Below are positions 4,936 through 35,477 of a stretch of DNA of 64,000 bases, one piece after another. This DNA comes from Streptomyces sp. S4.7. GTDB taxonomy: Bacteria > Actinomycetota > Actinomycetes > Streptomycetales > Streptomycetaceae. The position numbers were made by a program, and so were the translations under genes. The notes under the pieces were generated by a model. That model had not been told where the DNA came from, made no database searches, and was given only the letters and a program-made list of their open reading frames with translations. Location: positions 1,984,001-2,048,000 of the forward strand of contig NZ_CP048397.1 in the NCBI RefSeq assembly GCF_010384365.1. The letters are read 5' to 3'. Positions within the stretch are counted from its first letter, which is position 1. Every line of letters begins with the position of its first letter.

Positions 4936-4998
4936 GCCCCCATCCTCGCCCCTGCCGCGCTCACGGGCTCCCCCGGGGCGAGGCCGGCCGGGGCGGCA

Positions 4999-5402
4999 GA
5001 CGAGTCGGGCTGTACGCCGGGTTCTGTCGCCCGGTCGCCTCGCGGCGGCCGGGGAGACGGCCATCCATCTAGGACCGACGTTGCCGTCGGCCTCCTGCGG
5101 TCTACCCGCGGACTCGGGCGGGCAGCCCTCGGACGTCCGCGCAGGACCGTCTCGCGACGGCCCCTCTTGACCTTGCTCCAAGTGGGGTTTACCTAGCCGC
5201 CTGAGTCACCTCAGGCGCTGGTGGTCTCTTACACCACCGTTTCACCCTTACCCGGCACCTGGGCGCCGGGCGGTCTGTTTTCTGTGGCACTGTCCCGCGG
5301 GTCACCCCGGGTGGGCGTTACCCACCACCTTGCCCTGTGGAGTCCGGACGTTCCTCGGGAAGATCCGAGGATCTTCACGCGGCCGTCCGCCCGGCTCGTC
5401 TG
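4999..5402 (-). ncRNA. rnpB: RNase P RNA (bacterial type A)
   Basis: This is the catalytic RNA of ribonuclease P, which removes the 5' leaders of tRNA precursors. Read on the minus strand, the segment contains conserved landmarks of the bacterial RNA. These are a GAGGAACGTCCGGACTCCAC block after the first stem, GGTAAGGGTGAAACGGTG, AGGTAAACCCCACTTGGAGC, GGGTAGACCGCAGGAGGCC, the P4-closing TAGATGGATGGCCGT, and ACAGAACCCGGCGTACAGCCC near the 3' end. Length (about 400 nt) and order match actinobacterial RNase P RNA. The exact ends are estimated to within a few bases. Confidence 0.96.
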
Positions 5403-29080: not shown

Positions 29081-29185
29081 GCGCGTCGTCATCATGCCCG
29101 TACGGGGGGAAGCCGGTGCGAATCCGGCACTGACCCGCAACCGTGAGCCGCCCTCACCGGCGGTGAGTCGGAACACCCCGGACGC
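29081..29185 (+). promoter_or_regulatory. Cobalamin riboswitch
   Basis: The core GGGGGGAAGCCGGTGCGAA (from about 29104), TCCGGCACTGACCCGCAACCGTGA and the B12-box-like GAGTCGGAACACC (29165-29177) are the conserved signature of the adenosylcobalamin aptamer. The ends are estimated. A hairpin GCCACCGG/CCGGTGGC (29203-29224) lies between the aptamer and the GGAGAG ribosome-binding site (29303-29308), suggesting that translation of the first gene is switched off when cobalamin binds. The downstream operon is a transport system, consistent with this control. Confidence 0.93.
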
Positions 29186-29320
29186 GGACGTGACCGGCTC
29201 GCGCCACCGGAAACCCCCGGTGGCCGGCACCGTCGAGGCATACGGAGCCGAGCCTGGTGCCTCAGCGTGCCTGCCCGGTTCCCGCGTTCACGCGTTCACG
29301 CAGGAGAGGCCGCACCCGCC

Positions 29321-30634
29321 ATGACCACCGTTCGCCGCCACCTGGCGCGCGGCGCAGCAGCGCTCGCCGCGGCCGCTGTCCTGTGCGTGACCGCCGTCCC
29401 CGCCGTGGCCTCCGCCGCCCCGGCCGCCCCGGCCTCTCCGGCCGACGAAGGGGTTCCCGCAGGGCCGCCTGCCGAGCTGCCCGACGGGATGTACGGCACG
29501 ACGGACCCGACGTACGACGGTGTCTGGCGCCAGTCGCTCGCCATGCTGGCGCAGCGCGCCGTGAACGTCATGCCCGCCGACTCCGCCGTCAACTGGCTCC
29601 TCGGCCAGCAGTGCGACAGCGGCGCCTTCCCGGCGTACCGCCCCGACCCCACGAAGCCGTGCGACGCGACGACCGTCGTCGACACCAACTCCACGGCCGC
29701 CGCCGTACAGATACTGGCCGCGCTCACCACCTACCCGGACGCCATGAACAACGGCATGAGCTGGCTGGCCTCCGTGCAGAACAAGGACGGCGGCTGGGGA
29801 TACAGCGCGGGCGCGCCCAGTGACGCCAACTCCACGGGCCTGGTGATAGGAGCACTGGCCGCCGGCGGGGCCCCGGTGGACAAACGGCTCTCGACGCAGG
29901 GCAGGTCCCCGTACCAGGCGCTGAACAGCTTCGCGATCCCCTGCGACGCGCGGGAGGGCGGCGGCGCGTTCGCGTATCAGCCGGACAAGTCCGGCAAACT
30001 GCTCCCCAACGCCGACGCCACGGCCGCCGGTCTGCTCGGCGGTATCGGCAAGCGGATGGTCACGACGGGCGTCGAGCCCGGCCCCGGGCCCGTCTGTCAG
30101 GACCTGCACCCGCTCACCCCGGAGCGCGCGGCGCGCAACGGCGCGTCGTATCTGGTGAAGGCGCTCGCCGAGACGGGGCATCTGGACCAGCCGCCCATGC
30201 CGGGCGCCGCCGACTCGGCGCCGCTGCCGGACCACGGCAACACGGCGGACGCCGTCGTCGCGCTGACGACCGCCGGGTACGGCAAGCAGGCGGTGGCCCC
30301 GATGAAGTGGCTGGAGAGGAACTCGGCCGCGTGGGCGAAGGAGAACGGCCCCGCCGCCTACGCCCAGTTGATCTTCGCCGCGCACACGACGGGCACCGAC
30401 CCGCGCAAGTTCGGCGGCACCGACCTGGTGAAGGCCCTGAACGCGACGGGACCGGCGCCCAAGTGGATCGGGCCCAAGCCCCTGACGACCGCCGAGCAGC
30501 AGAAGGTGCTGGCGGAGCAGAAGGCGGAGAAGCACAGCATGTCCGGGAACCTGTGGACGATGGGCATCGGGGCGTTCTTCGCGCTCGTCGTCTGCGCGCT
30601 GTTCGTGGTGCGGGCGAAGCGGCGCCGGGCATGA
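29321..30634 (+). CDS. Secreted, membrane-anchored alpha/alpha-toroid protein in cobalamin-controlled ECF operon
   Basis: This 437-residue protein has a cleavable signal peptide (RHLARGAAALAAAAVLCVTAVPAVASA) and a large extracellular region with prenyltransferase/squalene-oxidase-like repeats, such as AVNWLLGQQCDSGAFPAY, GMSWLASVQNKDGGWGY and RNGASYLVKALAETG. A C-terminal membrane segment (GIGAFFALVVCALFVV) ends in RAKRRRA. The toroid fold is also that of the alpha domain of eukaryotic intrinsic factor and transcobalamin, so a surface cobalamin or corrinoid receptor is a reasonable hypothesis. The ATG at 29321 has CAGGAGAG upstream. Its stop overlaps the next start (ATGA). Six Cys residues may form disulfides. 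Confidence 0.82.
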   Translation: MTTVRRHLARGAAALAAAAVLCVTAVPAVASAAPAAPASPADEGVPAGPPAELPDGMYGTTDPTYDGVWRQSLAMLAQRAVNVMPADSAVNWLLGQQCDSGAFPAYRPDPTKPCDATTVVDTNSTAAAVQILAALTTYPDAMNNGMSWLASVQNKDGGWGYSAGAPSDANSTGLVIGALAAGGAPVDKRLSTQGRSPYQALNSFAIPCDAREGGGAFAYQPDKSGKLLPNADATAAGLLGGIGKRMVTTGVEPGPGPVCQDLHPLTPERAARNGASYLVKALAETGHLDQPPMPGAADSAPLPDHGNTADAVVALTTAGYGKQAVAPMKWLERNSAAWAKENGPAAYAQLIFAAHTTGTDPRKFGGTDLVKALNATGPAPKWIGPKPLTTAEQQKVLAEQKAEKHSMSGNLWTMGIGAFFALVVCALFVVRAKRRRA

Positions 30635-31344
30635 GGCGGGCACCGGTACGCGTGCGGATACGGGCCCGGCGTCTCGTCCCGCTCGTCGCGGTCCTGCTCG
30701 CCTTCACCGGCGCGCTGACGGTGCCGGGCACGGGGACGGCCCACGCGGCGGGCTACCGCTACTGGTCGTTCTGGGAGAGCGACGGCGCGCGGTGGACGTA
30801 CGCCACACAGGGACCGGCCCTCGCGCGCCCCGCCGACGGCGCGGTGAACGGTTTCCGCTTCGCGGTCAGCGCGGACAGCCAGGACGCGGCGAAGCCCCGC
30901 GAGACACCGGACTTCACGGCCGTCTGCGGGTCGACCCCCGCGAAGAGCGGCGCCAAGCGGGTCGCGGTGGTCGTCGACCCCGGCACGGAGGCGGACGCCC
31001 CGGACGGCGAGAAGCCGCCGGCGCCGCTGGCAGAGTGCGCGCGGGTCGACGCCGACGCGACGAGCGCGGACGCGCTCGCGGCGGTCGCGAAGCCGCTGCG
31101 CTACAACAGCGCCGCGCTGCTCTGCGCGATCACCGGCTACCCGAAGTCGGGCTGCGGCGAACAGATCTCGGACGACGGGGCCGCCTCCCCGGCCCCCACC
31201 GCCTCGCGCGCCACGGGTGGCCTGAGCAGGGACGACGAGGACGAGGAGGGCGGCACCCCGTCGCTCGGCATCCTCGCGGGAGCCGCGGCCGTGCTCACCC
31301 TGGCCACGGCCGCGGTCTGGCAGGCCCGCCGTCGCCGCGGCTGA
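30631..31344 (+). CDS. Secreted, membrane-anchored partner protein (SCO2324-like)
   Basis: This 237-residue protein has a signal peptide (LVPLVAVLLAFTGALTVPGTGTAHA), an extracellular domain starting YRYWSFWESDGARWTYATQGP with four cysteines, an acidic linker (SRDDEDEEGG) and a C-terminal membrane segment ending in QARRRRG. I do not recognise a named domain. It overlaps the toroid-protein gene by ATGA and so is its likely stoichiometric partner, perhaps a second domain for cobalamin capture, as intrinsic factor also has two domains. The TGA at 31342-31344 is followed directly by a coding-like frame that leads into the ecfT gene. Confidence 0.82.
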   Translation: MRRAPVRVRIRARRLVPLVAVLLAFTGALTVPGTGTAHAAGYRYWSFWESDGARWTYATQGPALARPADGAVNGFRFAVSADSQDAAKPRETPDFTAVCGSTPAKSGAKRVAVVVDPGTEADAPDGEKPPAPLAECARVDADATSADALAAVAKPLRYNSAALLCAITGYPKSGCGEQISDDGAASPAPTASRATGGLSRDDEDEEGGTPSLGILAGAAAVLTLATAAVWQARRRRG

Positions 31345-31657
31345 CCCGGCCGAGGCGGGCCGGCCGGATGCGGGCGCGGATGCCCCCGGCGGTACGACCG
31401 AGCGCGCGGGCACCGGAGCGGCCCCCGCACCGGCGGAGCCCGCTGCCGGCGGTCCCGGCACCCACCGCACGAGCCACGACAGCGCCCCGCCCCGTCCTCC
31501 GGAGGGCGATGCCGACGCACCCGCGCACACCCGCGCGACCCCGGACCGGGGCCCCGCACCGACACGGCCCACCGGCGCCGCGCCAGTTCGCGCCTCCCGC
31601 AGCTTCCGGGCGCCGCAAGCCGGCCGCAGCAACGCCCTGCACGCCGGAGCCTGGTGG

Positions 31658-32713
31658 TTGTGGGCTCTCGGGCTGGCCGCCGCCGCCTCGCGGACCACCA
31701 ATCCGCTGCTGCTCGGGCTCCTCGTCGGGGTGGCCGGGTACGTCGTCGCCGCCCGGCGGACCGACGCGCCGTGGGCCCGGTCGTACGGGGCCTTCGTCAA
31801 GCTCGGGCTGGCCGTCATCGTCGTCCGGCTGGTCCTCGCGGCCTTCCTCGGCTCACCGATCCCCGGCTCGCACCTGATCGTGACCCTGCCCGAACTGCCC
31901 CTGCCCGACTGGGCGAAGGGCGTTAGGATCGGGGGCCGCGTGACGGCCGAGCAGCTGGTGTTCGCGCTGTACGACGGCGCCAAGCTCGCCACGCTCCTCA
32001 TCTGCGTGGGCGCGGCGAACGCGCTCGCCAACCCGGCCAGACTGCTCAAGTCCCTGCCGGGCGCGCTGTACGAGGCCGGTGTCGCCGTCGTCGTCGCCAT
32101 GACCTTCGCGCCGAACATGGTCGCCGACGTCCTGCGCCTGCGCACCGCCCGCCGTCTGCGCGGCCGGCCGACCGGCGGGGTGAAGGCGATCCTCCAGATC
32201 GGACTGCCGGTCCTGGAGGGTGCGTTGGAGCGCTCCGTCGCCGTCGCCGCGTCGATGGACGCGCGCGGCTACGGCCGCACGGCCGCCGTACCCCCCGCCG
32301 TCCGCCGCACCACCACCGCACTGACCCTCGGCGGTCTGCTCGGCGTCTGCGCGGGATCGTACGGGCTCCTCGCCGCCGAGGGCGCCGGGTACGGTCTGCC
32401 CCTCCTCGGTATCGGGCTCGCCGCCGCGCTCGCCGGTCTGCTGCTCGGCGGGCGCCGTTCGGTCCGTACGCGCTACCGCCCCGACCTGTGGGGCGTCCGG
32501 GCCTGGCTGGTCGCGGGGTCGGGCGCGGCCGTCGCCGCGCTGATGATCCGGGCGAGCGCGTACGACCCCGCGGGCCTGTACCCCGGCGTCGTACCGCTCG
32601 TGGCACCCGGTCTGCCGCTCTGGCCCGCCGCCGGCATCCTGCTCGGCCTGCTCCCGGCCTTCGTCGCGCCCCTGCCCGCCACTTCCACCACCCCCGAGGA
32701 GAAGACCCGGTGA
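31658..32713 (+). CDS. ecfT: ECF transporter transmembrane protein (EcfT), true start upstream and unresolved
   Basis: This integral membrane protein (at least 351 residues) has five to six segments and the EcfT coupling signature: LRTARRLRGRP and MDARGYGRTA, arginine-containing loops that contact the ATPases. TTG at 31658 is the first ATG/GTG/TTG in this frame, but the conserved sequence runs further back (HAGAWWLWALGLAAAASRTTN). The same frame keeps strong G/C third positions from 31343, the base after the T of the preceding TGA, giving a 105-codon Ala/Pro/Thr-rich leader with no usual start codon. CTG at 31637 or a frameshift from the upstream gene are the options. The GTGA at the end couples it to the ATPase. 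Confidence 0.8.
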   Translation: MWALGLAAAASRTTNPLLLGLLVGVAGYVVAARRTDAPWARSYGAFVKLGLAVIVVRLVLAAFLGSPIPGSHLIVTLPELPLPDWAKGVRIGGRVTAEQLVFALYDGAKLATLLICVGAANALANPARLLKSLPGALYEAGVAVVVAMTFAPNMVADVLRLRTARRLRGRPTGGVKAILQIGLPVLEGALERSVAVAASMDARGYGRTAAVPPAVRRTTTALTLGGLLGVCAGSYGLLAAEGAGYGLPLLGIGLAAALAGLLLGGRRSVRTRYRPDLWGVRAWLVAGSGAAVAALMIRASAYDPAGLYPGVVPLVAPGLPLWPAAGILLGLLPAFVAPLPATSTTPEEKTR

Positions 32714-34644
32714 TCCGGTTCGAGCAGGTGTCGGTGACCTACGCCGACGCGCCGGCCCCCGCCCTCGGCGCGTTGCGGGGGGTGGATCTCACCGTCCCCG
32801 AGGGCGAGTTGGTGCTGCTCGTCGGCCCCTCGGGGGTCGGCAAGTCCACCCTGCTGGGCGCGGTGTCCGGGCTCGTCCCCCACTTCACCGGCGGCCGCCT
32901 CCGCGGCAGAGTGACCGTCGACGGCCGCGACACCCGTACCCACAAGCCGCGCGAACTCGCCGATCTCGTCGGCACGGTGGGCCAGGACCCGCTCGCCCAC
33001 TTCGTCACCGACACGGTCGAGGACGAACTGGCCTACGGGATGGAGTCGCTGGGCCTGGCCCCCGACGTGATGCGGCGCCGCGTCGAGGAGACCCTGGACC
33101 TGCTCGGTCTGGCCGAGCTGCGCGACCGCCCGATCGCCACGCTCTCCGGCGGCCAGCGGCAGCGCGTCGCGATCGGTTCGGTGCTGACCCCGCACCCCAA
33201 GGTGCTGGTCCTGGACGAGCCGACGTCCGCGCTCGACCCGGCGGCGGCCGAGGAGGTGCTGGCCGTGCTGCAACGGCTGGTGCACGACCTGGGCACGACC
33301 GTGCTGATGGCCGAGCACCGGCTGGAGCGGGTCGTGCAGTACGCGGACCAGGTCATCCTCCTCCCCGGCCCCGGCGAGGCGCCGGTCGTCGGCGAGCCGG
33401 AACGGATCATGGCCCTCTCCCCTGTCTGTCCGCCGGTGGTGGCGCTCGGCCGGCTGGCCGGCTGGGACCCGCTGCCGCTGTCCGTACGCGACGCGCGCCG
33501 CCGGGCGGCCGGTCTGCGCGAGCGGCTCGCCACGACGCCGCCCCCGTCGGCGCGCGACGCGACGCCGCCTCCCGTGGCACCGGGCGGGCGGCCCGCCGCC
33601 CCCCGTACCGCGCTCGGGCGCCTGCTGGGCCGTCGGCCACCGGAACCCCGGAACCCGGACACCGGAATCACGACCGTCAGCCGGCTCGCCGTACGGCGCG
33701 GCCGGATCGAGGCGCTGCGCGGCATCGACCTCACCGTGACCCCCGGCGAGACGATCGCCCTCATGGGCCGTAACGGCGCGGGCAAGTCGACGCTGCTCGC
33801 CACCCTCGTCGGCATGGTCGAGCCCTCGTCGGGCTCGGTCACCGTCGGCGGGCGGGCCCCGCACCGGACACATCCGCGCGAGCTGATCCGGCAGGTCGGC
33901 CTCGTCCCGCAGGAGCCGCGCGACCTGCTGTACGCGGACACGGTCGCCGCCGAGTGCGCGGCGGCGGACGCCGACGCGGGCGCGCCGCCCGGCAGTTGCC
34001 GCGCGCTGGTCGACGAACTGCTGCCGCAGGTGCCCGACGCGACGCATCCGCGTGACCTGTCGGAGGGGCAGCGGCTGGCGCTGGCGCTGGCGATCGTGCT
34101 GACGGGCCGGCCCCCGCTGCTGCTCCTGGACGAGCCGACGCGCGGCCTGGACTACGCGGCGAAGGCCCGCCTCGTGGACGTCCTGCGCGCGCTCGCGGCC
34201 GAGGGGCACGCGATCGTTCTGGCCACCCACGATGTTGAACTGGCCGCCGAACTCGCCCGCCGGGTCGTGATCCTGGCCGACGGCGAGATCGTCGCCGACG
34301 GGCCGACCCCCCAAGTGGTCGTCTCCTCACCGGCGTTCGCCCCACAGGTCACGAAGATCATGGCCCCGCAGGACTGGCTGACGGTCTCTCAGATACGCCG
34401 GGCACTGACAGCGGGCGGAACCGGCGCGCAGGATGCGCCCGACCGGGCCGGCACGACGGGTGCCCCCGGCACCACCGCCGGGACCGCAGCGACCGGCCGG
34501 ACCGGCACGACGGCCGCACCCGGTGCGACGGGCACGACCCTCAGGGCGGACGAGCCCGGGACCTCCGACACGACGGGTACGCCCGGCACGACGGGTGCCC
34601 CCGGCACCAGCGGCACACCCCGCACCCGCGAGGATCCCGTATGA
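32710..34644 (+). CDS. ECF transporter ATPase with two ABC domains
   Basis: This 644-residue protein fuses two energy-coupling ATPase domains. The first has Walker A VGPSGVGKSTL, signature LSGGQRQRV and Walker B VLVLDEPTSALD. The second has MGRNGAGKSTL, the less usual signature LSEGQRLAL and LLLLDEPTRGLD, and a switch His in ATHDVELA. A Pro-rich linker joins them. The last 70 residues are a Thr/Gly/Pro/Ala low-complexity tail encoded by degenerate DNA repeats. The GTG at 32710 overlaps the ecfT stop. It energises uptake by the EcfT/EcfS pair in this cobalamin-controlled operon. Confidence 0.93.
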   Translation: MIRFEQVSVTYADAPAPALGALRGVDLTVPEGELVLLVGPSGVGKSTLLGAVSGLVPHFTGGRLRGRVTVDGRDTRTHKPRELADLVGTVGQDPLAHFVTDTVEDELAYGMESLGLAPDVMRRRVEETLDLLGLAELRDRPIATLSGGQRQRVAIGSVLTPHPKVLVLDEPTSALDPAAAEEVLAVLQRLVHDLGTTVLMAEHRLERVVQYADQVILLPGPGEAPVVGEPERIMALSPVCPPVVALGRLAGWDPLPLSVRDARRRAAGLRERLATTPPPSARDATPPPVAPGGRPAAPRTALGRLLGRRPPEPRNPDTGITTVSRLAVRRGRIEALRGIDLTVTPGETIALMGRNGAGKSTLLATLVGMVEPSSGSVTVGGRAPHRTHPRELIRQVGLVPQEPRDLLYADTVAAECAAADADAGAPPGSCRALVDELLPQVPDATHPRDLSEGQRLALALAIVLTGRPPLLLLDEPTRGLDYAAKARLVDVLRALAAEGHAIVLATHDVELAAELARRVVILADGEIVADGPTPQVVVSSPAFAPQVTKIMAPQDWLTVSQIRRALTAGGTGAQDAPDRAGTTGAPGTTAGTAATGRTGTTAAPGATGTTLRADEPGTSDTTGTPGTTGAPGTSGTPRTREDPV

Positions 34645-35477
34645 GCGCCGGTCCCGACCCCCAGGTCCGGGCCGTGCGGCTCGGGCCCCGTTCCGTCGCC
34701 GCGCTCGTGCTCGTCAGCGCGATCGGGGTGATCGCCTTCGGGTGGCCGCTGCTCGCCGACTCCGCCTCCGGGCTCGCCCACTCCCGGGACGCGCCCTGGC
34801 TCTTCGCCGTGCTGCTCCCCCTCCTGGTCGCCGTCGTCGTCGCGACGATCGCCGACTCCGGCCTGGACGCCAAGGCGGTCGCCATGCTGGGCGTGCTGGC
34901 CGCCGTCGGCGCCGCGCTGCGTCCGATCGGCGCGGGGACGGCCGGTCTGGAGCCGATGTTCTTCCTGATGGTGCTGAGCGGCCGGGTGCTGGGCCCCGGC
35001 TTCGGTTTCGTACTCGGCGCGGTCACGATGTTCGCCTCCGCGCTGCTGACCGGCGGCGTCGGGCCGTGGATGCCGTTCCAGATGCTGTCGATGGGCTGGT
35101 TCACGATGGGCGCGGGGCTGCTGCCGGGCCCGGACCGGCTGCGCGGACGCGGCGAGTCGCTGATGCTCGCCGCGTACGGGGCCCTCGCCGGCTTCGCGTA
35201 CGGCACGATCATGAATCTCCAGGGCTGGACCTATATCGGCGGGCTCTCCTCCGGGATCTCGTTCCGGCCGGGCGACCCGGTCCACGAGAACCTGGTCCGC
35301 TTCCTGGCGTACTGCGCGGCGACATCGTTCGGCTGGGACCTGGGGCGGGCGGTGCTCACCGTCGTCCTGACACTGACGATCGGCGCCACCGTCCTCAAGG
35401 CGCTGCGCCGGGCCACCCGGCGGGCCGCGTTCGACGCGGAGGTCGCCTTCGAGGAACCGGCCGAACCCGCGCGCTGA
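34641..35477 (+). CDS. ECF transporter substrate-binding membrane component (EcfS)
   Basis: This 278-residue membrane protein has about six segments and the shape of ECF S components (GTAGLEPMFFLMVLSGRVLGPGFGFVLGAVTMFASALLTGGVGPWMPFQMLSMGW is the characteristic central region, spanning roughly residues 90-155). Riboswitch control and operon order suggest cobalamin, cobinamide or a related compound as ligand, not cobalt, because CbiM/CbiN-type features are absent. The ATG overlaps the ATPase stop. It ends 15 bases before the convergent acetyltransferase. Confidence 0.87.
   Translation: MSAGPDPQVRAVRLGPRSVAALVLVSAIGVIAFGWPLLADSASGLAHSRDAPWLFAVLLPLLVAVVVATIADSGLDAKAVAMLGVLAAVGAALRPIGAGTAGLEPMFFLMVLSGRVLGPGFGFVLGAVTMFASALLTGGVGPWMPFQMLSMGWFTMGAGLLPGPDRLRGRGESLMLAAYGALAGFAYGTIMNLQGWTYIGGLSSGISFRPGDPVHENLVRFLAYCAATSFGWDLGRAVLTVVLTLTIGATVLKALRRATRRAAFDAEVAFEEPAEPAR

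Follow-up and report, generated by a model that had tools for sequence, protein, structure and literature searches.

A cobalamin-riboswitch operon of Streptomyces encoding a putative two-part, circularly permuted corrinoid lid beside an ECF importer

In a 64,000-nucleotide stretch of DNA from Streptomyces sp. S4.7 (the window), a cobalamin riboswitch heads a five-gene operon on the + strand which encodes, in order, an SCO2321-family toroid, an SCO2322-family protein, EcfT, a double EcfA and EcfS; riboswitch and operon are confirmed as they were first described. The operon probably serves corrinoid capture and import, with a membrane-tethered two-part lid feeding the ECF importer. The alignments indicate that the SCO2321 toroid and the putative SCO2322 beta domain are both circularly permuted, and neither protein has the unpermuted chain order of transcobalamin and intrinsic factor. 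If the reading as a whole is right, ECF transporters gain an extracellular binding partner, the bacterial relatives of intrinsic factor are extended to Actinomycetota, and two partner domains have both undergone circular permutation. The reading also gives a testable function to two families named at NCBI by locus tag only (SCO2321, SCO2322) and present in Streptomyces and beyond, including small-genome candidates for B12 auxotrophy. Among the matches listed for the tags SCO2321-SCO2324 in open-licence PubMed Central, only SCO2321 appeared, in one transdermal peptide paper.

Riboswitch, gene arrangement and transporter genes

The preliminary description had placed a cobalamin aptamer ahead of the operon, and Rfam family RF00174 was matched there at 29106-29178 on the same strand (37.5 bits, gathering cut-off 31.5); the match spans model positions 45-169 of 189, the compact form. 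This leader is one of five cobalamin riboswitches in the genome. A strict core pattern detected the riboswitch in 40 of 78 loci only, and a covariance model, R1, built from the riboswitch of the window and three relatives, was used in its place. R1 matched 72 of 80 related loci (three of the 72 had gone into building it), once each, always upstream of the toroid gene at a distance of 100-439 bases, and gave no match elsewhere in 1.37 Mb; it found nothing in the other eight, two of which are without upstream DNA. Rfam at gathering reported the riboswitch in three of seven Streptomyces loci. In 30 of 36 genomes picked for toroid matches, an RF00174 match lay within 2 kb upstream of the toroid match on the same strand, about half of the nearest riboswitch matches being below gathering. 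Of 22 genomes picked for SCO2322 matches, 19 had a riboswitch match immediately ahead of the SCO2322 or toroid gene (gathering was reached in only 6 of the 19), and an above-gathering riboswitch was present in 7 of 9 scanned DUF4430 or fusion loci. The link of the operon to cobalamin, also proposed earlier, was supported.

The genes had been said to be joined mostly by ATGA/GTGA overlaps, and three such four-base joints were read from the sequence: ATGA at 30631 (SCO2321/SCO2322), GTGA at 32710 (EcfT/double EcfA) and ATGA at 34641 (double EcfA/EcfS). The exception is the SCO2322/EcfT junction, which reads CTGA and so lacks a start/stop overlap; among relatives an ATGA or GTGA overlap occurs at this junction in 44 of 73 and is absent from the other 29. 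The EcfT frame of the window is open from 31226, with no ATG, GTG or TTG before 31658, and GC content by codon position gave no coding frame from 31345 to about 31580. Gene order is conserved in 64 of the 66 related loci that have enough downstream sequence (the loci compared for order and leader are nearly all from Streptomyces); this conservation, together with the reach of the leader model (72 of 80 loci, none elsewhere), makes a chance origin of the arrangement very unlikely.

EcfT (provisionally 31658-32713, + strand) is a CbiQ-like transmembrane component (CbiQ 18.0 bits, cut-off 25) carrying the ARRLRG and ARG motifs. The double EcfA (32710-34644, + strand) holds two ATPase domains in one chain, matched by ABC_tran in two stretches (193.9 bits), with Walker A and signature motifs each present twice, and scored 301 bits to TIGR04521, below the cut-off of 330. 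The substrate component EcfS (34641-35477, + strand) matched PF12822 as its sole family (29.7 bits, cut-off 30.7), with no match to CbiM. EcfT, an EcfA pair and EcfS are found together, EcfA strongly and the other two below Pfam cut-offs. We infer the corrinoid specificity of EcfS only from the riboswitch and the context.

Fold and chain order of the two surface proteins

The product of 29321-30634 (+ strand) belongs to NCBIfam SCO2321_fam (NF053823; 503 bits, cut-off 300), and that of 30631-31344 (+ strand) to SCO2322_fam (NF040672; 224 bits, cut-off 85), with GPS-CTERM on the latter at 22.7 bits, under its cut-off of 28. Both had been described as secreted and C-terminally anchored. Each carries a signal-like stretch near its N-terminus and, near its C-terminus, a hydrophobic segment (409-434 in SCO2321, 210-230 in SCO2322) with basic residues after it; both look secreted, and from this composition the tether resembles a membrane tail and not LPXTG.

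An AlphaFold2 model of the toroid (29465-30436; pLDDT 93.6, pTM 0.92) has the alpha/alpha toroid fold, with Z about 19-23 to several toroid families. The nearest folds among the matches listed were terpene cyclases, prenyltransferases, complement domains and carbohydrate-active toroids, led by squalene-hopene and drimenyl diphosphate cyclases (Z about 23), and the sequence profile of the toroid matched squalene-hopene cyclase at E 4e-36. Cyclases led this structure comparison among the matches listed, and a specifically intrinsic-factor-like character of the toroid did not emerge. No solved B12 carrier was among the best 60 of 86 profile matches, and intrinsic factor, transcobalamin and haptocorrin were all missing from the best 50 in each of two structure searches with the model, a comparison in which the permutation hampers sequential aligners. 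Pfam Cobalamin_bind touched only 3 of 21 toroid relatives (best E 2.2e-4). Identity to the toroid of the window was 49-64%, with one at 89%, as against 69-95% for the T, A and S components. NF053823 had matches in 97 of 296 genomes and its family cut-off was passed in only 9 of the 296; since some of the 97 represent squalene-cyclase-like proteins (e.g., loci L179, L180, L190 and L191), that figure is no count of B12 systems.

No Pfam family was matched by the SCO2322 product up to an E of 1, and PF14478 (DUF4430), sought at its curated cut-off, had no match in genome G000. A profile of 15 unpermuted partners was compared with 28 of 30 DUF4430 sequences (L153, with a stop, and L168, in the wrong frame, were dropped) and gave a probability of 91.2, and 94.2 (E 1.1e-7, single comparison) when half-swapped SCO2322 was added to the partners; the column-reversed controls gave 0.1 and 0.0. 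SCO2322 alone reached 69.3 in native order and 73.8 with its halves swapped, the s1 half alone being aligned (reversed control, 3.0). The partners had been collected with the SCO2322 profile, mostly via the s2 half, so that likeness in s2 was selected and only s1 is independent evidence. The partners gave no informative Pfam match, and a PDB search with their profile was negative, an unrelated enzyme at E 1 being its best row. Structure searches with the beta model yielded no fold match either (E 2.4 at best in Foldseek, and a single row at Z 2.2 elsewhere); for the model, the permutation may be the reason. Of the comparison with DUF4430 suggested earlier, the profiles gave support at family level and the structure search no match. 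The profiles indicate that SCO2322 is probably a divergent, half-swapped transcobalamin-type (DUF4430/SLBB) beta domain.

Within the toroid, block tB (29477-30061, + strand; hhalign native piece 260.5, A1 columns 112-298), which is C-terminal in unpermuted relatives, precedes block tA (30122-30436, + strand; native piece 109.1, A1 columns 4-105), which is N-terminal in them. In the beta domain, likewise, s2 (30757-30873, + strand; YWSFW...W...G...G.V.GF.F; native piece 65.4), C-terminal in unpermuted relatives, precedes s1 (30949-31152, + strand; VAVVVD...C...AL...LLCAITGYP; native piece 37.0), N-terminal in them. These orders could be artefacts of the internal repeats of the toroid, which are alike, and of the short beta-domain motifs, and the toroid halves are indeed ambiguous in L182, L189 and L205. 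We hold this to be most improbable: cyclic shifting of the toroid family led to a single alignment that covers 284 of 302 columns and scores 359.8, where the better native piece had 260.5, swapping the halves of the beta domain turned two pieces into one alignment at 93.0, and both chain orders stand side by side in one genome (G171, loci L048 and L049). Among 54 loci tested for order, 24 had separable halves in both domains (L182, L189 and L205, where the toroid halves overlap, were left out); both domains had the canonical order in 14 and the permuted order in 9, and 1 was mixed (L037, toroid permuted and beta domain canonical). Common descent inflates this agreement, and many of the tested loci had also gone into the half-profiles. 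One joint event behind both permutations was not supported. Among the matches listed from open-licence PubMed Central (titles and abstract starts), there was no work on these permutations.

Probable corrinoid import and its alternatives

If the operon does capture and import corrinoids, a low level of coenzyme B12 would, as expected of its riboswitch family, permit expression, and SCO2321 and SCO2322 would be exported and, through their C-terminal tails, stay attached to the membrane on its outer side. The permuted toroid and the half-swapped beta-grasp domain would then sandwich the corrinoid in the manner of the two transcobalamin domains. Toroid-less operons and EcfS-toroid fusions suggest that the beta protein would be the constant partner delivering to EcfS and that the toroid would act as a lid, raising affinity as it closes. 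Judged by their families, EcfT and the double EcfA would power import.

Unpermuted versions of the toroid and beta domain occur in riboswitch-headed ECF operons of other Actinomycetota, and DUF4430 is present in toroid/ECF operons of others. EcfS is fused to the toroid in at least four loci, and the EcfS of the window matched the S part of four such fusions (blastp E 9e-21 to 7e-14, those four only); the existence of these fusions supports the coupling of the surface proteins to the S component that had been suggested. Toroid and beta domain are fused in a single chain in L054. The toroid is missing from 7 of 15 related operons examined, from which it looks as though the beta protein, and not the toroid, is the constant partner. 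Five riboswitch-linked toroid loci (in G134, G102, G166, G018 and G284) had no EcfT or EcfS nearby. A single family supplied ten genomes, 1.3-2.2 Mb in size, in none of which CobD/CbiB was found; all ten have B12-binding domains, and all ten have a riboswitch match 166-234 bases before SCO2322 (3 of 10 reach gathering), a combination that fits corrinoid import and not cobalt import for synthesis. In three small genomes without CobD/CbiB the operon has the beta protein and no toroid.

Cobalt-ion import for B12 synthesis, with the surface proteins as accessory subunits in a CbiN-like role, would agree with the weak CbiQ likeness of EcfT and the CbiO-like families of the ATPases, and cobalt transporters are also found under cobalamin riboswitches (PMC3766115, in the portion available). 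We consider it very unlikely, as EcfS matches PF12822 and not CbiM, the beta family resembles a transcobalamin domain, and the riboswitch-led SCO2322 operon persists in the ten small genomes (at three of these loci the whole operon was examined), where cobalt would be useless for synthesis. The toroid and its partner might instead bind no ligand and serve at the cell surface to stabilise the ECF complex or to regulate it; the toroid is dispensable in some operons and evolves faster than the transporter, and the S-toroid fusions indicate contact, not binding. This we regard as unlikely, since both parts resemble the ligand-sandwiching domains of the known B12 carrier type (PMC1796856, in the portion available) and the toroid-beta fusion in a single chain exists.

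The cyclase matches given above would suit a toroid acting as a terpene cyclase or a carbohydrate-active enzyme that is secreted and co-regulated by coincidence, a reading we find scarcely credible for a protein that is apparently exported, linked to riboswitch and ECF genes and fused to EcfS in some loci. Terpene cyclases have a conserved DxDD acid motif; DxDD occurred anywhere in the sequence in only 4 of 21 and 2 of 74 toroid relatives, and with this motif unconserved, identity as a terpene cyclase was rejected. Corrinoid capture and import remains our best explanation. CobD/CbiB is present in the genome of the window, so the organism probably makes B12, and a second riboswitch-headed ABC importer (BtuC/F420-0/siderophore group, with NCBIfam matches all below cut-off) is encoded there; both count against this explanation, as the organism may not need the capture system.

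Relation to known carriers and importers

Animal B12 carriers are soluble single chains taken up through receptors. Intrinsic factor, transcobalamin and haptocorrin have the two-part design proposed for SCO2321 plus SCO2322, and the likeness drawn at the outset is supported by the profile assignment of the partner as a putative divergent, permuted transcobalamin/DUF4430-like beta domain. In transcobalamin, an alpha/alpha toroid and a beta-grasp domain surround one cobalamin (PMC1796856). Burroughs et al. (2007, PMC1796856) predicted a toroid plus transcobalamin-like domain with CbiO/CbiQ in Gram-positives and proposed that the secreted or anchored parts scavenge B12, so the general idea of Gram-positive surface capture parts was already known. 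The available portion of their paper assigns the clade to low-GC Gram-positives, planctomycetes and some euryarchaea, and stresses domains fused in one chain and owners usually without key B12 enzymes. Common to that account and ours are a toroid and a beta-grasp part of transcobalamin type, the latter putative in our case, whose genes accompany those for CbiO-like ATPases and CbiQ-like proteins; here, by comparison with that portion, they come from Actinomycetota as two separate membrane-tethered chains, both apparently permuted, with a divergent beta domain lacking a Pfam match, a cobalamin riboswitch and a host that has CobD/CbiB. The terms "riboswitch", "Streptomyces" and "circular permut" are absent from the text of PMC1796856.

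A wider proposal joins an actinobacterial split transcobalamin beside EcfS, its domains permuted, to the variants of other branches and to an animal offshoot; taken jointly, these could equally be right or wrong. Permutation would shift the point at which each membrane tail leaves its domain, and the two halves could still shut around the corrinoid; other branches would have fused the toroid to EcfS, or lost it and let the beta domain deliver alone; and a capture lid widespread among bacteria would have given rise to the animal B12 carriers as one of its offshoots.

In ECF vitamin importers the membrane S component itself is usually described as binding the substrate, with no extracellular binding protein. 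The BtuG/BtuH surface lipoproteins of Bacteroides capture B12 ahead of the transporter in the outer-membrane systems of diderm bacteria; surface capture is shared, whereas the protein families differ from SCO2321/SCO2322. ECF-CbrT of Lactobacillus delbrueckii is an ECF cobalamin importer, the type proposed here, with the S component as substrate-binding protein and no extracellular binding partner mentioned in the available portion of its description (PMC5997447). In acI freshwater Actinobacteria, a cobalamin ECF module behind riboswitches was predicted in strains without B12 synthesis (PMC5301498). That module may correspond to the operon of the 1.3-2.2 Mb genomes; the available portion of PMC5301498 names no surface capture protein, whereas here the gene for the putatively permuted beta domain leads the operon.

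The riboswitch operon and its conservation

The preliminary description of a cobalamin riboswitch followed by five genes was confirmed by family profile matches. The cobalamin aptamer RF00174 (29106-29178; 37.5 bits against a gathering threshold of 31.5) precedes the genes for an SCO2321-family protein, the toroid (29321-30634; 503 bits), an SCO2322-family protein (30631-31344; 224 bits), EcfT, a double EcfA and EcfS, in that order. The genome (G000) is 7.94 Mb and is close to that of Streptomyces niveus (L066), whose toroid is 89% identical. The gene overlaps described earlier were found as four-base overlaps at three joints and were lacking at the SCO2322/EcfT joint; the EcfT frame contains no ATG, GTG or TTG from 31226 until 31658. 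The EcfT start lies within an ATGA or GTGA overlap in 44 of 73 relatives. A CTGA at this joint is common to the window and S. niveus L066, where an in-frame GTG occurs 95 bases downstream.

A scan of named genomes supplied the 80 top-ranking loci, almost all from Streptomyces, in which conservation was assessed. The order and strand of all four toroid partners were kept in 64 of the 66 loci that extend 5.9 kb or more from the start of the toroid, the exceptions being L100 and L130. A covariance model built from four leaders (window, L098, L072 and L124) matched once each in 72 of the 80 loci (E of 0.01 or lower), three of these 72 leaders having gone into the model; matches lay 100-439 bases upstream of the toroid match, and none was found elsewhere in 1.37 Mb. 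Two of the eight loci without a match have too little upstream DNA.

Chain order of the toroid and the putative beta domain

It had been proposed that the two surface-anchored proteins form a surface capture module, comparable to animal cobalamin carriers in its two-part design, feeding the ECF S component; this was supported in part, and sharpened. AlphaFold2 modelling of 29465-30436 with 74 sequences gave a confident alpha/alpha toroid (pLDDT 93.6, pTM 0.92). Its best Foldseek match was drimenyl diphosphate synthase (E 2.7e-6), and its best match by Z score was squalene-hopene cyclase (Z 23.2, rmsd 2.9, 254 aligned), with Z about 19-21 for further toroid families. The matches listed included no B12 carrier, and a special kinship of the toroid to intrinsic factor is therefore unsupported.

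The window toroid family was compared with profile A1, which covers 21 toroids from other Actinomycetota and the second copy in genome G171. In native order it aligned in two pieces with the halves exchanged: columns 112-298 were matched by residues 5-199 (score 260.5), and columns 4-105 by residues 220-324 (score 109.1). Cyclic shifting did best at residues 201 and 221, where a single alignment resulted, spanning 284 (score 359.8) and 283 (score 359.6), respectively, of the 302 columns (E 7.6e-53).

The SCO2322 model was fair (pLDDT 84.4, pTM 0.83) and had no convincing structural match in the PDB; neither SCO2322 nor its unpermuted counterparts had an informative Pfam match. The 15 counterparts (profile A5) came from toroid operons and were retrieved with the SCO2322 profile mostly via block s2, which is C-terminal in unpermuted relatives, so that the s2 likeness (score 65.4) results from selection; the N-terminal block, s1, aligned as a second piece independently of selection (score 37.0, E 8.7e-6). 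With its halves swapped, SCO2322 aligned in one piece over 108 columns (score 93.0, E 4e-16). Against a profile of 28 sequences of DUF4430, which we take to be the C-terminal domain type of animal B12 carriers, A5 gave a probability of 91.2 over 94 columns, and A5 plus swapped SCO2322 one of 94.2 over 98 columns; column-reversed controls gave 0.1 and 0.0. SCO2322 alone gave 69.3 in native and 73.8 in swapped order (reversed, 3.0) and aligned by s1 only, so its DUF4430 link runs mainly through the unpermuted relatives. These profile comparisons support, at family level, the reading of SCO2322 as a transcobalamin-type beta domain with permuted halves.

Both domains had separable halves in 24 of 54 loci tested: in 14 loci each domain had the canonical order, in 9 each had the permuted order, and 1 was mixed. 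Genome G171, of the same genus as the window, holds two complete systems (L048 and L049), one permuted in both domains and the other unpermuted in both; a DUF4430 match lies downstream of the unpermuted system's toroid.

Distribution, fusions and toroid-less operons

A search of 296 genomes of the phylum with NF053823 gave matches in 97, 9 of them above the cut-off. The 36 genomes and 34 distant loci considered next were hand-picked, and their counts are not population rates. Among the 36 genomes, chosen for toroid matches, 30 had an RF00174 match (counting those below gathering) within 2 kb upstream of the toroid match on the same strand, and 26 had an above-gathering match anywhere. EcfA (E below 1e-35) was present in 28 of the 34 distant loci and absent at that threshold from L036, L039, L040, L053, L060 and L063. 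For L036 (G134), L040 (G102), L063 (G284), L039 (G166) and L060 (G018), no EcfT/EcfS was found nearby and a cobalamin riboswitch match lies upstream of the toroid gene; these toroids are possibly stand-alone secreted corrinoid binders. Across the phylum, 34 of the 198 genomes searched carry DUF4430 genes, and operons with EcfA, EcfS and a toroid (L184-L188) hold several; an above-gathering cobalamin riboswitch was present in seven of nine loci scanned (L176, L177, L182, L184, L187, L188 and L189). A protein at L054:8129-10573 (G258) combines a toroid, an unpermuted beta domain and cell-wall-binding CWB2 repeats, and is a natural single-chain version; a second beta-domain gene follows.

In L065, L177, L182 and L189, EcfS is joined to the toroid within a single open frame. 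The S portion of these fusions resembles the window EcfS (blastp, E 9e-21 to 7e-14, with a database of those four only and composition correction off), and three of the four match PF12822 below its cut-off.

SCO2322 in permuted order also extends beyond Streptomyces; of 246 genomes surveyed in the class, 83 exceeded the family cut-off. EcfT, EcfA and EcfS lie directly downstream in 12 of 15 such loci read, and seven of the 15 (L192-L196, L198 and L201), with upstream sequence present, lack any toroid match on the strand of the operon. These toroid-less operons suggest that the transporter's constant partner is the beta protein and that the toroid is optional.

Probable corrinoid supply and known systems

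Ten genomes of one family (1.3-2.2 Mb) all have a riboswitch match 166-234 bases upstream of SCO2322 (reaching gathering in three) and B12-binding domains, and none has a CobD/CbiB match. This combination fits imported corrinoid rather than cobalt. In the small single-contig genomes of L192-L194 (G317, G371 and G360, family f92; 1.3-1.4 Mb), the sole cobalamin riboswitch match precedes the SCO2322-ECF operon, B12-binding domains are present and CobD/CbiB had no match; these organisms are likely B12 auxotrophs. The ten genomes resemble the acI group, for which PMC5301498 describes an ECF module preceded by a riboswitch.

The core idea is already known: Burroughs et al. (2007, PMC1796856) describe the C-terminal domain of animal carriers as SLBB, and propose B12 scavenging in bacteria by SLBB domains of the transcobalamin clade, which are often fused to toroids and have CbiO and CbiQ proteins encoded alongside. 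The surface genes of this operon are not named in the available parts of two riboswitch papers (PMC3766115, PMC8079986), where an S. lividans table gives two cobalamin riboswitches, located upstream of cbiM and cobD genes. As far as searched, the new elements are the actinobacterial branch, the interpretation of SCO2322 as a beta domain with permuted halves, the toroid permutation, the division between two chains with a membrane tail each, the fusions of EcfS to the toroid, and operons that lack the toroid; no prior report of them was among the best matches in the open-licence literature, subscription papers being outside this scope.

Elsewhere in the window genome, riboswitches precede genes for a B12-independent methionine synthase and CobD/CbiB (both family matches above cut-off). 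Another precedes an ABC importer; its permease and binding protein gave matches to the BtuC, F420-0 and siderophore families, all below cut-offs. The organism probably makes B12 and scavenges it as well, whereas the owners described in 2007 usually lack key B12 enzymes (PMC1796856). An RNase P class A RNA gene lies at 4997-5398 on the minus strand of the window (296.6 bits).
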